A DNA stretch of 64,000 nt, from contig JAFRKJ010000046.1 in assembly GCA_017431785.1 (NCBI GenBank), positions 1 to 64,000 of the forward strand, in the 5' to 3' direction. The notes below the pieces were generated by a model that was given only the letters and a program-made list of their open reading frames with translations, searched no databases and was not told the DNA's origin. The translations under genes were made by a program, and so were the position numbers. Position 1 is the stretch's first letter. Every line of letters starts with the position of its first letter. The stretch is from Bacillota bacterium. Lineage in GTDB: Bacteria; Bacillota; Clostridia; Peptostreptococcales; Anaerovoracaceae. Below, one piece after another: positions 27,704 to 50,030 of this stretch.

Positions 27704-29089
27704 ATGGAGAAGATCAACAATCTTAAATGGAAAGATGTGCTTGCTCTTGCAAGCAAGGAATTGACTGATGTAAGCTACAGAACTTGGTTTCTTCCTCTTG
27801 TACCCCTTGAAATGGATAAAGAGAAAGGAACCATGTCTTTTGCTGTAACAGAAAGCTTCAAGGCCAATATGTTTTCAAGAAACCCAAGATATATTGATAT
27901 TCTTGAAAAGGCTATCAAAGAAGTCTTCAATAAACCTTATCATATTCTGATTACACATAAGTCTGAAGATGAAATCAAGGAAATTCTGGAGGGTAAAAAT
28001 AAGAAAACTGCCGCTCCATCTATTGATTCTTCCAATCCTTACAAAGAAGAATACTATCTTAACCCGAAATTCAATTTTGATAATTTTATCGTAGGACCAA
28101 ATAATGAATATGCCCACGCAGTTTCTCTCGCTGTAGCGGATAATCCTTCCACAGCATACAATCCTCTTTTTATCTACGGAGGATCAGGACTTGGTAAAAC
28201 ACATCTGATGCATGCAATAGGGCAGCATATCATGAGAACAAATCCTTCTCTTAAAGTTCTCTATGTCTCATCGGAGATGTTTACTTCAGAGCTTGTTCAG
28301 GCTTTGCAGGATCCGGTCAACAAAAACAGTAAATTAAATGCATTTAAGGCAAAATACAGAAATGTCGATGTTCTTTTAATTGATGATATTCAATTCATTG
28401 AGGGTAAAGAATCAACACAGATGGAATTTTTCCATACATTTAATACTCTTTACGGCCTGAACAGACAAATCGTAATCTCAAGTGACAGACACCCTAATAA
28501 ACTGAGAGATCTGGATGAAAGACTGACTTCAAGATTTAAATCAAATATCATGGCTGATATCCAGCCTCCTGATTTTGAAACAAGAGTAGCAATTCTCAGA
28601 AAAAAAGCAGAGGAAGAAGGTCTTGTGATCGATGAAAATACTCTTGAAGTCATCGATCTGATTGCAGAAAAAATCAAATTCAACATCAGAGAGCTGGACA
28701 GCGCGCTGCTTCGTGTCATTTCCTTCTCAAAATTCAAGAACCAGCCGCTTACAGCTAAATTTGCAAAAGAACACCTTACAGATATCTTCTCAGTAAGAGA
28801 TATTGATATTTCCTGTGAATCCATCAAAAAAGCTGTATGTAAGAAATACAATATCAAAATCGCAGATATTGAATCTAAAAAGAGAAACAGGGAATTTTCA
28901 CATCCTAGACAGATTGCAATGTATCTATGCCGGGAACTGACTAATCTTTCTCTTCCTAAAATAGGTGAATCCTTCGGAGGAAGAGACCATACAACAGTTC
29001 TCCATGCATGCGATAAAATTGGAAAACAAGTAAAACTGGATCCGACGCTTTTTGAAGATATCAGAAATCTGAAAGAAGATCTTCAATAA
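27704..29089 (+). CDS. dnaA: Chromosomal replication initiator DnaA
   Basis: AAA+ initiator protein that binds the boxes on both sides of this gene. Domain I (about 1-85) includes SYRTWFLPLVP; a short linker follows. The ATPase has Walker A GGSGLGKTHLMHAIG, Walker B VLLIDDIQFIEGKE and sensor/arginine box DERLTSRFKS. C-terminal domain IV carries the box-binding signature FGGRDHTTVLHA. I start at the ATG at 27704 (461 residues), 13 nt after GAAAGG; an in-frame TTG at 27683 has no ribosome site. The gene is clearly AT-richer than those outside the dnaA-recF block. Confidence 0.96.
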   Translation: MEKINNLKWKDVLALASKELTDVSYRTWFLPLVPLEMDKEKGTMSFAVTESFKANMFSRNPRYIDILEKAIKEVFNKPYHILITHKSEDEIKEILEGKNKKTAAPSIDSSNPYKEEYYLNPKFNFDNFIVGPNNEYAHAVSLAVADNPSTAYNPLFIYGGSGLGKTHLMHAIGQHIMRTNPSLKVLYVSSEMFTSELVQALQDPVNKNSKLNAFKAKYRNVDVLLIDDIQFIEGKESTQMEFFHTFNTLYGLNRQIVISSDRHPNKLRDLDERLTSRFKSNIMADIQPPDFETRVAILRKKAEEEGLVIDENTLEVIDLIAEKIKFNIRELDSALLRVISFSKFKNQPLTAKFAKEHLTDIFSVRDIDISCESIKKAVCKKYNIKIADIESKKRNREFSHPRQIAMYLCRELTNLSLPKIGESFGGRDHTTVLHACDKIGKQVKLDPTLFEDIRNLKEDLQ

Positions 29090-47427: not shown

Positions 47428-48768
47428 ATGGAAGAGAGAATACCTCCCCACAATCCTGACGCGGAGAGATCCGTATTAGGCGCGGCACTCTTATCTGAGG
47501 ACGCGCTCTTTGACGTTGTTGAAGTCGTAAAACCGGAGGATTTTTATGATCCGAACCACAAAGAGATTTTCAGCGTCATCTATGAACTGAACAAAAAGAA
47601 CGCACCTGTCGATGCGCTGACAGTGTCGGAGGAACTTGACAAACGAGGCAGCCTCGAGATGGTCGGCGGAAGAGCGTATGTGGCCGGATTGTCATCATCA
47701 ACGCCCACCACTGCAAATGCAGGAGAATACGCCAAGATCGTTGCGGAGAAAGCCTCCATCAGGCGGTTGATTGCAAAAGCAGATGATATCGTCGTCAAAG
47801 GTTATGACAAGAGCATGGATGCCGGGCAGCTGCTGGATTATGCAGAGAATGGGATTTTCGAGATCTCACAGGAACGGCAGAAGGGTGCTTTTGTACCCCT
47901 TAAGGATGTGCTCATCAGCAACATTGACGCCATCGACAAAGCTTCAAAGCTGAAAGACGGACTGACCGGAGTGACGACAGGATTCAGGGATCTTGATGCG
48001 AAGACATCAGGTCTGCAGAAGTCAGAGCTGATTATTCTGGCTGCAAGACCTGCCATGGGTAAGACAGCATTCGCGCTTTCCCTCGCCCTGAATGCAGCCG
48101 TGAAAGGCGGTGCATCCGTCATGGTCTTCAGCATGGAGATGTCAAAGGAAGCTCTGGGGCAGCGACTGCTGGCAATGGAGTCAAAAGTAGAGATGCAGAA
48201 GCTCAAGACAGGAAGGCTGGAGCGGCGCGATTGGGATGATGTGAACATCGCGTTAGAGGTGCTTTCCGGAGCGAACATCTTTATCGATGATACCGCCGGC
48301 ATCAGCATCATGGAAATGAAGAGCAAGTGCAGAAGGCTCAAGGCGGAGAAGAAGCTGGACCTTGTCGTCATCGACTATCTCCAGCTCATGAATCCGGAAG
48401 GAAGATCCCTGGAATCCCGTACGCAGGAGATCTCCGTCATCTCACGTAACCTGAAGCTCCTGGCGAGAGAGTTGGATTGTCCTGTTCTGGTGCTTTCACA
48501 GCTTTCCAGAAATCCTGAGCAGAGAACAGACCACAGACCGATGCTTTCAGACTTGAGAGATTCCGGATCCATTGAACAGGATGCAGATATTGTTCTCTTC
48601 TTATACAGAGACGAATATTACAACGAAGATACAGATGCCCCTGGCGAATGTGAGGTCATCATCGCCAAGCAGAGAAGTGGTCCGACAGGCACCGTTAAGG
48701 TGGCATGGCTCGATAAGATCACCAAGTTTGTAGACAGCGCAGGAAGTGGAAACTTCAGCGGATTCTAG
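47428..48768 (+). CDS. dnaB: Replicative DNA helicase
   Basis: Hexameric fork helicase (DnaC in Bacillus naming). N-terminal collar domain beginning IPPHNPDAERSVLGAALL, linker helix and RecA-like motor with Walker A AARPAMGKTAFALSLALN, Walker B LDLVVIDYLQLM and the arginine finger region. 446 residues. It ends 2 nt before the DnaD-domain gene. Confidence 0.97.
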   Translation: MEERIPPHNPDAERSVLGAALLSEDALFDVVEVVKPEDFYDPNHKEIFSVIYELNKKNAPVDALTVSEELDKRGSLEMVGGRAYVAGLSSSTPTTANAGEYAKIVAEKASIRRLIAKADDIVVKGYDKSMDAGQLLDYAENGIFEISQERQKGAFVPLKDVLISNIDAIDKASKLKDGLTGVTTGFRDLDAKTSGLQKSELIILAARPAMGKTAFALSLALNAAVKGGASVMVFSMEMSKEALGQRLLAMESKVEMQKLKTGRLERRDWDDVNIALEVLSGANIFIDDTAGISIMEMKSKCRRLKAEKKLDLVVIDYLQLMNPEGRSLESRTQEISVISRNLKLLARELDCPVLVLSQLSRNPEQRTDHRPMLSDLRDSGSIEQDADIVLFLYRDEYYNEDTDAPGECEVIIAKQRSGPTGTVKVAWLDKITKFVDSAGSGNFSGF

Positions 48769-48770
48769 AG

Positions 48771-50030
48771 ATGAGTTTTTACAAAGAAAAGACAATAGAT
48801 TATTTTCTCCTTGATACCAAGGTAGAGAATATGTTCATAAATGAATATATGGTGTCCGCTCCGGGAGAGTACGTCAAAGTGTATCTCTTCGCACTCATGT
48901 ACGCAGAGTTGGAAGTGGACTTCAGTAATGAAGACATCGCCAAACAGCTGTCCATGGATATCGAAGATGTTCTCAAAGCTTGGACCTACTGGGAGAAGAT
49001 GGGCATCATCAGGAAAGCAAGAAAATCCCCGGACAACCCGCTGGATTATGATGTTGTATTTGTCCTGCTCAAAGACATGCTTTACGGAAGCCATGAAGAG
49101 GCGCATGTTGTCTCTTCTGATCACGGGATCAACGCACAGATGGCAAACCAGGAGTACAGATCCATGTTCGACCGGATTGAGAAGTCATTTGGGCGCGTCA
49201 TCAGCGGAACGGAAATGGGCGAAGTGCTTTCCTGGATCAACGATTTCGAGATCGAACCGGAATTCGTTGCCTTTGCAGTAGAGTACTGCGCCAGAAAGAA
49301 GAAAAAGACAGTCAAATACGTCGAGGCTGTGATCAGAAACTGGATCAGCGACGGACACAGAACCGTAGAGGACATCCAGCAGCACATCGGTCATATGGAG
49401 GAGCGTTCTGCAGATTACAGAAGGATTTTCAGAGCACTCGGATGGAGCAGGAACTGGACGGAAGAAGAAAAACGCATCATGGATGAGTGGTTCGACAAAA
49501 TGGGATTCAGCGTTGACGCCATTCTGGATGCATGCAGCAAAACGACCGGAATTTCGAACCCGAACATCAACTACATCAACAAGGTACTTACAAGCTGGTA
49601 CGAGGAAGGCGGAAGAAAGACTGCCGCTGGTGAGGTGAGTGGTGCTGATATCAATCGGTACTATGAGCTTCTCAGAGCAAAGGAAGAACGGGAAGCGGCT
49701 CAGCGCCGTGAGAAAGTATACAGCAGACTGCCTCAGATCAGGGAAATGGATGAAGAAGAAAGCAGGCTCGGAGCCAGCCTTTCCAGGATACTGGTGTCCG
49801 ACCGTGTAGATAAAAAAGAAGCAATCGAGCAAATCAGAGAACAGATAGACGAATTGAGCGCACAGAGGGCGTTCCTGATGACGGACAACGGATTTGAACT
49901 GGATTATATGGACGTCAAATACCAATGCCCGGACTGCAAAGATACAGGAAAGCTTGAAACAGGAGAAAGGTGCCCATGCCACAGGGAAATAACCCAGCAG
50001 AAAATAGAAGCACTGCAGAAAACAGAATAG
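48771..50030 (+). CDS. DnaD-domain protein fused to a helicase-loader N-terminal zinc region
   Basis: 419 residues. A winged-helix-like N-terminus (about 1-85; SNEDIAKQLSMDIEDVLKAWTYWEKMG) and DnaD domain(s) (about 115-280; SGTEMGEVLSWINDFEIEPE, YVEAVIRNWISDG). The last about 110 residues look like the start of a clostridial DnaC/DnaI helicase loader: a helical RLPQIREMDEEESRLG...DELSAQRAFLM stretch and a four-cysteine zinc motif (Cys386, Cys389, Cys401, Cys403 in YQCPDCKDTGKLETGERCPC). The AAA+ ATPase domain that should follow is missing, and no such gene follows at this locus, where a separate dnaC/dnaI is usual. Family knowledge: DnaD helps initiation and the loader N-domain binds the helicase. 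Inference: this fusion may tether helicase to primosome without ATPase. Its last 55 nt overlap the next gene. Confidence 0.8.
   Translation: MSFYKEKTIDYFLLDTKVENMFINEYMVSAPGEYVKVYLFALMYAELEVDFSNEDIAKQLSMDIEDVLKAWTYWEKMGIIRKARKSPDNPLDYDVVFVLLKDMLYGSHEEAHVVSSDHGINAQMANQEYRSMFDRIEKSFGRVISGTEMGEVLSWINDFEIEPEFVAFAVEYCARKKKKTVKYVEAVIRNWISDGHRTVEDIQQHIGHMEERSADYRRIFRALGWSRNWTEEEKRIMDEWFDKMGFSVDAILDACSKTTGISNPNINYINKVLTSWYEEGGRKTAAGEVSGADINRYYELLRAKEEREAAQRREKVYSRLPQIREMDEEESRLGASLSRILVSDRVDKKEAIEQIREQIDELSAQRAFLMTDNGFELDYMDVKYQCPDCKDTGKLETGERCPCHREITQQKIEALQKTE

Follow-up and report, generated by a model that had tools for sequence, protein, structure and literature searches.

We describe a protein of the Clostridia in which a DnaD-type helicase co-loader and the N-terminal, helicase-binding part of a DnaC-type helicase loader are joined in a single chain that stops before any AAA+ domain. 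This DnaD-family protein probably works as a helicase loader, and the comparison of its relatives points to a repeated origin of the fusion and suggests that the fused lineages start DNA copying without the standard loader motor. Because the AAA+ domain is absent, we do not file the protein as a member of the DnaC/DnaI family. A search of the open-access literature by title or abstract start found no description of such a DnaD-loader fusion.

The fused gene and its surroundings

The window, that is the whole stretch of 64,000 nucleotides analysed (contig JAFRKJ010000046.1 of assembly GCA_017431785.1, from a Bacillota bacterium of the Anaerovoracaceae), resembles an oriC region. Its dnaA gene is flanked on one side by parA/parB, rsmG, mnmG, mnmE and yidC and on the other by dnaN, recF, gyrB and gyrA (names read from protein starts); further along come a gdpP-like gene, rplI, the dnaB helicase gene, the fused gene and an M23 peptidase gene. 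The relevant features are the following.

27704..29089, + strand: DnaA initiator, an AAA+ protein related to DnaC (PF00308, PF08299)
47428..48768, + strand: replicative helicase dnaB, the expected client (PF03796 and PF00772; N and C domains both present)
48771..50030, + strand: fused gene, DnaD-type co-loader plus loader helicase-binding/putative zinc domain (ATG ORF, 419 aa, without AAA+)
49167..49385, + strand: first DnaD domain (PF07261), aa 133-205, profile match
49449..49610, + strand: second DnaD domain (PF07261), about aa 227-280, profile match
49644..49988, + strand: loader N-terminal (helicase-binding) part, aa 292-406, NF005304 match
49926..49979, + strand: four-cysteine motif CxxC...CxC, Cys386/389/401/403, read from the ORF
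to 52441: M23 peptidase, the next gene after the fused gene

The initial annotation of this DNA, made from its letters and open reading frames, had proposed a 419-residue DnaD-type frame ending like the start of a clostridial DnaC-type loader, and both halves of the proposal were borne out. PF07261 matches the whole protein with an E-value of 5.8e-31, its best stretch being 133-205 and two stretches lying above the cut-off. The YxxxIxxxW motif of DnaD/DnaB co-loaders, named in PMC5204125, is present twice (Y183/W191 and Y268/W276), with V at the middle place; Y183, W191 and Y268 are invariant in our alignment A1 and W276 is kept in at least 90% of it. The DnaC-type loader model NF005304/PRK06835 matches residues 292-406 (E 1.4e-26) through its positions 7-120 of 330 only, and the C-terminal part aligns with the start of a separate loader from the same order at 35% identity over 114 aa (E 1e-25). 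About the last 120 residues of the protein are thus a loader N-terminal part, and the stop before any ATPase domain, with the M23 peptidase gene next, is as had been described.

The positions given for the four cysteines were right; judged from this motif alone, the fused protein would bind zinc. A search of solved structures with the C-terminal alignment as query gave no match up to E 1, and a Pfam scan of the C-terminal part gave weak, scattered matches and nothing more. The DciA domain (DUF721/PF05258) is absent from the profile matches of the fused protein, and no domain of the DopE or lambda P type is among the matches listed at E<=1 for this protein, the only one to which that statement applies.

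Conservation and selection

With the whole protein as query, 189 of the 197 genomes of the window's family have a match. Named relatives are Anaerovorax sp. IOR16 and Bacilliculturomica massiliensis, both Anaerovoracaceae, and we take the family to be this one or a near neighbour. All 108 family genomes with a completeness of 90% or more and a contamination of 5% or less have the gene. Among the family matches listed, all extend through the loader part except that of genome G074 (1-314). Relatives at 95% to 37% identity share this layout, with the stop shortly beyond the CxC, so that the fusion is neither a chance event nor a local frameshift; the layout in these relatives also supports the suggestion that a loader was truncated by fusion. 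The four cysteines are Cys in 35/35 rows of alignment A1, which reaches down to relatives at 37% identity. An earlier alignment of 52 rows had all four in 51; the exception, L028, is a wrong-strand translation, which remained as one junk row of 52 in our home-made profiles.

Residues 286-406 are under purifying selection where this is estimable: dN/dS of the loader part is at most 0.45 wherever computable among seven close pairs, the top value of 0.45 being that of the zinc region against L072 and resting on few changes, and for the helical part three of the seven pairs gave no estimate, the synonymous sites being saturated. The last 13 residues (407-419) have a dN/dS above 1 in two of the seven pairs and therefore look unconstrained.

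Two divergent members of the family were seen in passing. In the single-contig genome G192 the fused gene (L318) is spread over three frames, probably through sequencing indels, possibly through real decay. In G083 the fused loader part (L176) is strongly diverged with an altered zinc region, and the genome also has a DnaC-like ATPase (L081).

Fused and separate loci

Profiles of the DnaD part, of the loader N-terminus and of the loader AAA+ domain were run on all ORFs of at least 60 aa at 269 loci. The DnaD part and the loader N-terminus are both above the limit at loci of two kinds, 110 with both in one ORF and 67 with the two in separate ORFs; in these counts some genes are counted more than once, and many loci span only 1.5 kb each side. 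Among the ORFs scanned, the 110 fused loci have no AAA+ match, and the 67 separate loci all have one, on the loader. The arrangement that the initial annotation had given as usual in Firmicutes, a DnaD-type gene followed by a separate loader gene with zinc region and AAA+ domain, is the one seen at these 67 loci. Outside the two groups stand 66 loci with a domain match: 61 have just the AAA+ domain, two (L076 and L077) just the DnaD part, and three (L212, L213 and L219, read by hand) a loader part below the limit. The remaining 26 of the 269 have no match.

At the junctions that were read, a DnaD protein without its tail is joined to a nearly whole loader N-terminus ending soon after the CxC. 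A profile of the DnaD tail, built from 30 outgroup loci of the order, finds the tail in none of the 110 fused genes (best E 0.5) and, at E<=0.01, in 17 of the 37 separate genes outside the training set; because it finds just these 17, the tail must be regarded as diverse and its loss as clearest within the order. This profile superseded two regular expressions for the tail, a strict one (2/67 separate, 0/110 fused) and a relaxed one (41/67 and 0/110). The fused proteins of the order and of family f44 thus appear to be without the tail of the separate DnaD.

Fusions that keep the AAA+ domain were suggested by 15 frames of 617-724 aa in the class-wide search. Twelve were read, G525, G378 and G367 being the three outside the reading: ten are separate dnaD and loader genes, and the remaining two, from G437 and G575 of family f15, are fusions without AAA+.

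Other variants of the DnaD gene exist in the class. In L205-L211 and L218, from families f13, f46, f53 and f64, a DnaD-like ORF with extra stretches of the DnaD part, some 500 aa or longer, adjoins a loader with AAA+. Nine genomes of the class have no DnaD match, and five of them are from family f47 (genus g211); the other DnaD matches of this family are weak (E 7e-7 to 3e-4), and it may be without the usual DnaD.

Loaders elsewhere in the genomes

A complete loader encoded at another locus was sought in 120 genomes of the window's family, namely the window's own, which is 81% complete, and 119 that are at least 90% complete. The full NF005304 loader is over the cut-off in none of the 120, and an AAA+ loader with its own zinc region, the finding that was to speak against truncation by fusion, did not turn up; among the NF005304 matches listed for the family, down to E 9e-18, none spans both loader parts. 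The same model is over the cut-off in 94 of 118 genomes sampled from the order, 20 of which belong to the window's family, hence in 94 of the 98 outside it; the four others are three genomes of family f9 that carry the same fusion (G213, G223 and G233) and G245 of f5. The cut-off is insufficient on its own, true separate loaders of family f15 scoring below it (E 1e-39 to 1e-58). The loader N-terminal part alone is present in at least 108 of the 120 family genomes by a hand count among the matches listed; of the other 12, G083 and its kin (genera g76, g77 and g43) read as fused, and the rest belong to genera g33 and g61 or are G079. As to the other known operator, a DciA profile had no match in the 198 genomes of the order, with a positive control in 7 of 14 known genomes, nor in the 22 genomes of f9, f44 and f15. 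These absences are judged by profile models, which a strongly diverged ATPase could escape, and most of the genomes are incomplete drafts.

ATPases of the broader DnaC/IstB type were sought with PF01695 at E<=1e-7, which has some match in 106 of the 120 family genomes and none in 14. A hand count gives 39 genomes with exactly one match, in a frame of DnaA length, and in two of these, G088 and G192, the frame was confirmed as DnaA by its domains; at least 53 of the 120 have no DnaC/IstB match besides one of DnaA length. Among the seven single-contig genomes of the family, G088, G095 and G192 have one PF01695 match and G071, G160, G164 and G195 have more; G088 and G095 carry the fusion. The other matches in the family are of several kinds, IstB-like of about 250 aa, DnaC-like of about 285-300 aa, and fragments, and IstB-like matches are present in some f9 and f44 genomes as well. 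The window's genome, in which a whole-genome check for a separate DnaC/DnaI had been advised, has two DnaC-like ATPases, one beside DUF6291 and an integrase, the other near an actin-like protein and an integrase.

Contig C74 of the window's genome, G000 (L313:11179-17019), holds, near an integrase/DnaC element, genes that by eye look like diverged duplicates of alr, PHP and hisB of the window. The genome bin, whose contamination is given as 5.24%, may combine two related strains.

Repeated origin of the fusion

The class-wide search covered 293 genomes. In family f44, 8 of 11 genomes match the N-terminal part only, the frames being 405-458 aa long, and no loader reaches the cut-off; at all eight loci the DnaD part lies in the same ORF as the loader part. 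A tree of 65 rows, built on DnaD plus loader N-terminus and leaving f15 outside, places the window's family (f1) and f9 in one clade (100/100) and groups the fused genes of f44 with the single row of f57 (100/100), a family with separate genes in all five loci read. A single origin of the f1, f9 and f44 fusions is rejected by the AU test (p-AU 0.00016). The tree has long branches (L216, L176) and six rows of odd composition, and the stem of f44 plus f57 is itself long; taken together, tree and test indicate that the fusion arose at least twice.

A third origin is indicated in f15, a family of genomes of 0.8-1.2 Mb, by comparison within one genus, g171, which contains both the fused and the separate state. 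G437 and G575, of about 0.9 Mb and 99 and 100% complete, encode a DnaD-loader fusion of about 605-609 aa (L219, L277) without AAA+ at the locus, with a short DnaD-like end after the loader part. In six further f15 genomes the loader match covers both parts, and in G357 and G496 (L212, L213) it adjoins dnaD. The fused DnaD part has 64% identity to that of the congener G357, against 24-30% to the proteins of f44 and of the window over the best-scoring stretch; between the fused loader part and the start of the G357 loader the identity is 36%. The best match to the loader model remaining in G437 and G575 is DnaA (E 2e-15 and 3e-14); the next ATPase matches, at about E 4e-7, are frames of 813-814 aa, and frames of the same size are matched in the unfused sisters.

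A proposed model for helicase loading without a loader ATPase

The model we propose, and which we consider likely, is that the fused protein acts as a one-chain co-loader and loader of the chromosomal DnaB, devoid of AAA+, and that the fusion replaces the docking of a tail on the loader AAA+ domain. In the ancestor, dnaD and the loader would have been neighbouring genes, and the DnaD tail would probably have docked on the AAA+ domain of the loader. The joining of the co-loader to the helicase-binding domain would have made this docking needless, and the tail and the AAA+ domain would then have been lost. In the resulting protein the DnaD part would be expected to form oligomers and to contact DnaA and the DNA of the origin, and the former N-terminal domain of the loader, with its long helices and its zinc motif, would hold the helicase and either open its ring or deliver it.

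The steps of this model are drawn by analogy with better-studied systems. For B. subtilis, PMC13326638 gives the recruitment order DnaA, DnaD, DnaB, DnaI and helicase, and reports that the co-loader DnaB uses its C-terminal tail to bind the AAA+ domain of DnaI, whose N-terminal domain bears zinc and binds the helicase. Should the clostridial pair be constructed in the same way, the AAA+ domain would also be a hook for the co-loader, and in the fusions of f1, f9 and f44 tail and AAA+ domain are both missing. The B. subtilis co-loader tail and the DnaD tail considered here are compared by role and may not be homologous; the recovery of 17 of 37 separate genes by the tail profile and the short DnaD-like end of the f15 fusions also count against the docking step. 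In S. aureus the C-terminal region of DnaD is required for binding ssDNA and PriA (PMC4909229), and by this comparison the loss of the tail may matter in other ways than docking.

Could the ATPase step be supplied by another AAA+ protein, most likely DnaA? The fused protein would then do no more than deliver the helicase to a filament of DnaA, and loading and release would be governed by the ATP state of that filament. We regard this as possible, though rather doubtful. DnaA is the best loader-model match left in G437 and G575, and in G088 and G192, each a single contig, nothing else matches PF01695 at E<=1e-7, but its presence is nothing special, since DnaA is expected in nearly all bacteria. 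Furthermore, the helicase-binding domain of E. coli DnaC loads without any loader ATPase (PMC8213410).

It is improbable that the fused tail is a relic without a role in loading, the helicase loading itself or with the primase. The C. difficile helicase is strongly stimulated by primase in the absence of the loader (PMC5204125), which would suit such a relic; the conservation of the four cysteines in 35/35 relatives down to 37% identity, the purifying selection on residues 286-406 where estimable, and the retention of the same loader part in three fusions would not. Marginally less probable again is the replacement of the chromosomal loader by DnaC/IstB-type ATPases of mobile elements. Such ATPases, of mobile-element or IS21 type, occur in a good part of the family and could in principle serve: two lie near integrases in the window's genome, and more occur in the family, including four of its seven single-contig genomes. 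As a general rule this reading is strained, however, by the at least 53 of 120 family genomes without a DnaC/IstB match other than one of DnaA length, and by the several kinds to which the family matches belong, the context having been read for the two of the window's genome. An artefact, whether truncation by assembly or frameshift or an AAA+ loader missed in incomplete genomes, could be feared from the 81% completeness of the window's assembly and the three frames of G192, and is already refuted for the family as a whole: layout and end recur unchanged in named contigs from many assemblies, the gene is in 108/108 genomes that pass the limits of 90% completeness and 5% contamination, and single-contig G088 and G095 carry the fusion.

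The one-chain loader devoid of AAA+ remains our preferred model, and it agrees with what is reported of loader ATPases elsewhere. The helicase-binding domain of E. coli DnaC alone gives about half of the DnaB loading of whole DnaC and stimulates unwinding to close to the whole-DnaC level (PMC8213410). Walker mutants of the C. difficile loader still bind the helicase, which is apparently loaded or activated; the role proposed there for ATP is to lock the helicase (PMC5204125). The purpose of the ATPase in AAA+ helicase loaders is not fully settled, the helicase-binding half of E. coli DnaC sufficing for partial loading in vitro (PMC8213410), and here whole lineages appear to have dropped it, repeatedly, together with the fusion of the co-loader. 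We lean, with some reserve, towards a broader proposal: these proteins would form a further class of replicative-helicase operator, loading without a loader ATPase and with at least three independent origins in Clostridia, and the AAA+ domain would be chiefly a docking and control module made dispensable by fusion. The repeated loss, and the before and after states within genus g171 of f15, make the role of the ATPase directly testable. A survey (PMC5109545) reports that nearly every bacterium it examined has dciA or dna[CI], 49 species having neither. The fusion may bear on these species, and their overlap with the fused lineages is a possibility.

Comparison with known systems and phage sequences

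The clostridial DnaC-type loader (NF005304/PRK06835), of which CD3654 of C. difficile is presumably an example, shares with the fused protein the N-terminal helices, the CxxC...CxC motif and the site beside or within a DnaD-like gene; it has an AAA+ domain and its own gene, whereas here the loader part is the C-terminus of a DnaD-like protein without AAA+. The clostridial DnaD-like co-loader of the CD3653 type, whose layout is DDBH1-DDBH2-DDBH2 (PMC5204125), has in common with it the N-terminal region and the two DnaD domains; the separate DnaD genes of the order end in a C-terminal tail, in the place of which the fused protein has the loader N-terminus. DnaB and DnaI of B. subtilis are likewise a co-loader/loader pair, which here would be one chain without AAA+. 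As for the chromosomal helicase operators DciA and DopE (PMC13326638), the fused protein would, like them, serve the helicase without a DnaC-type ATPase, but no sequence relation between them and the fused protein was found, and the DciA model is unmatched in the order. The helicase-binding domain of E. coli DnaC is AAA+-less too and loads DnaB (PMC8213410); it is a laboratory fragment, whereas in the present protein, joined to a DnaD protein, this would be the natural state. Helicase-binding domains of E. coli, B. subtilis and Clostridia are likened here by role and may not be homologous.

Among viral contigs, the C-terminal alignment found no match and the whole-protein alignment found three partial ones. 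One of these, at the end of a contig, covers the zinc part, the other two cover the DnaD part, and none extends over both. Phage records gave nine matches, of which MT837698.1, MT837496.1 and MT835471.1 cover most of the query in two pieces. These three records are unannotated 'Bacteriophage sp.' sequences from human faeces and may be chromosomal contigs.
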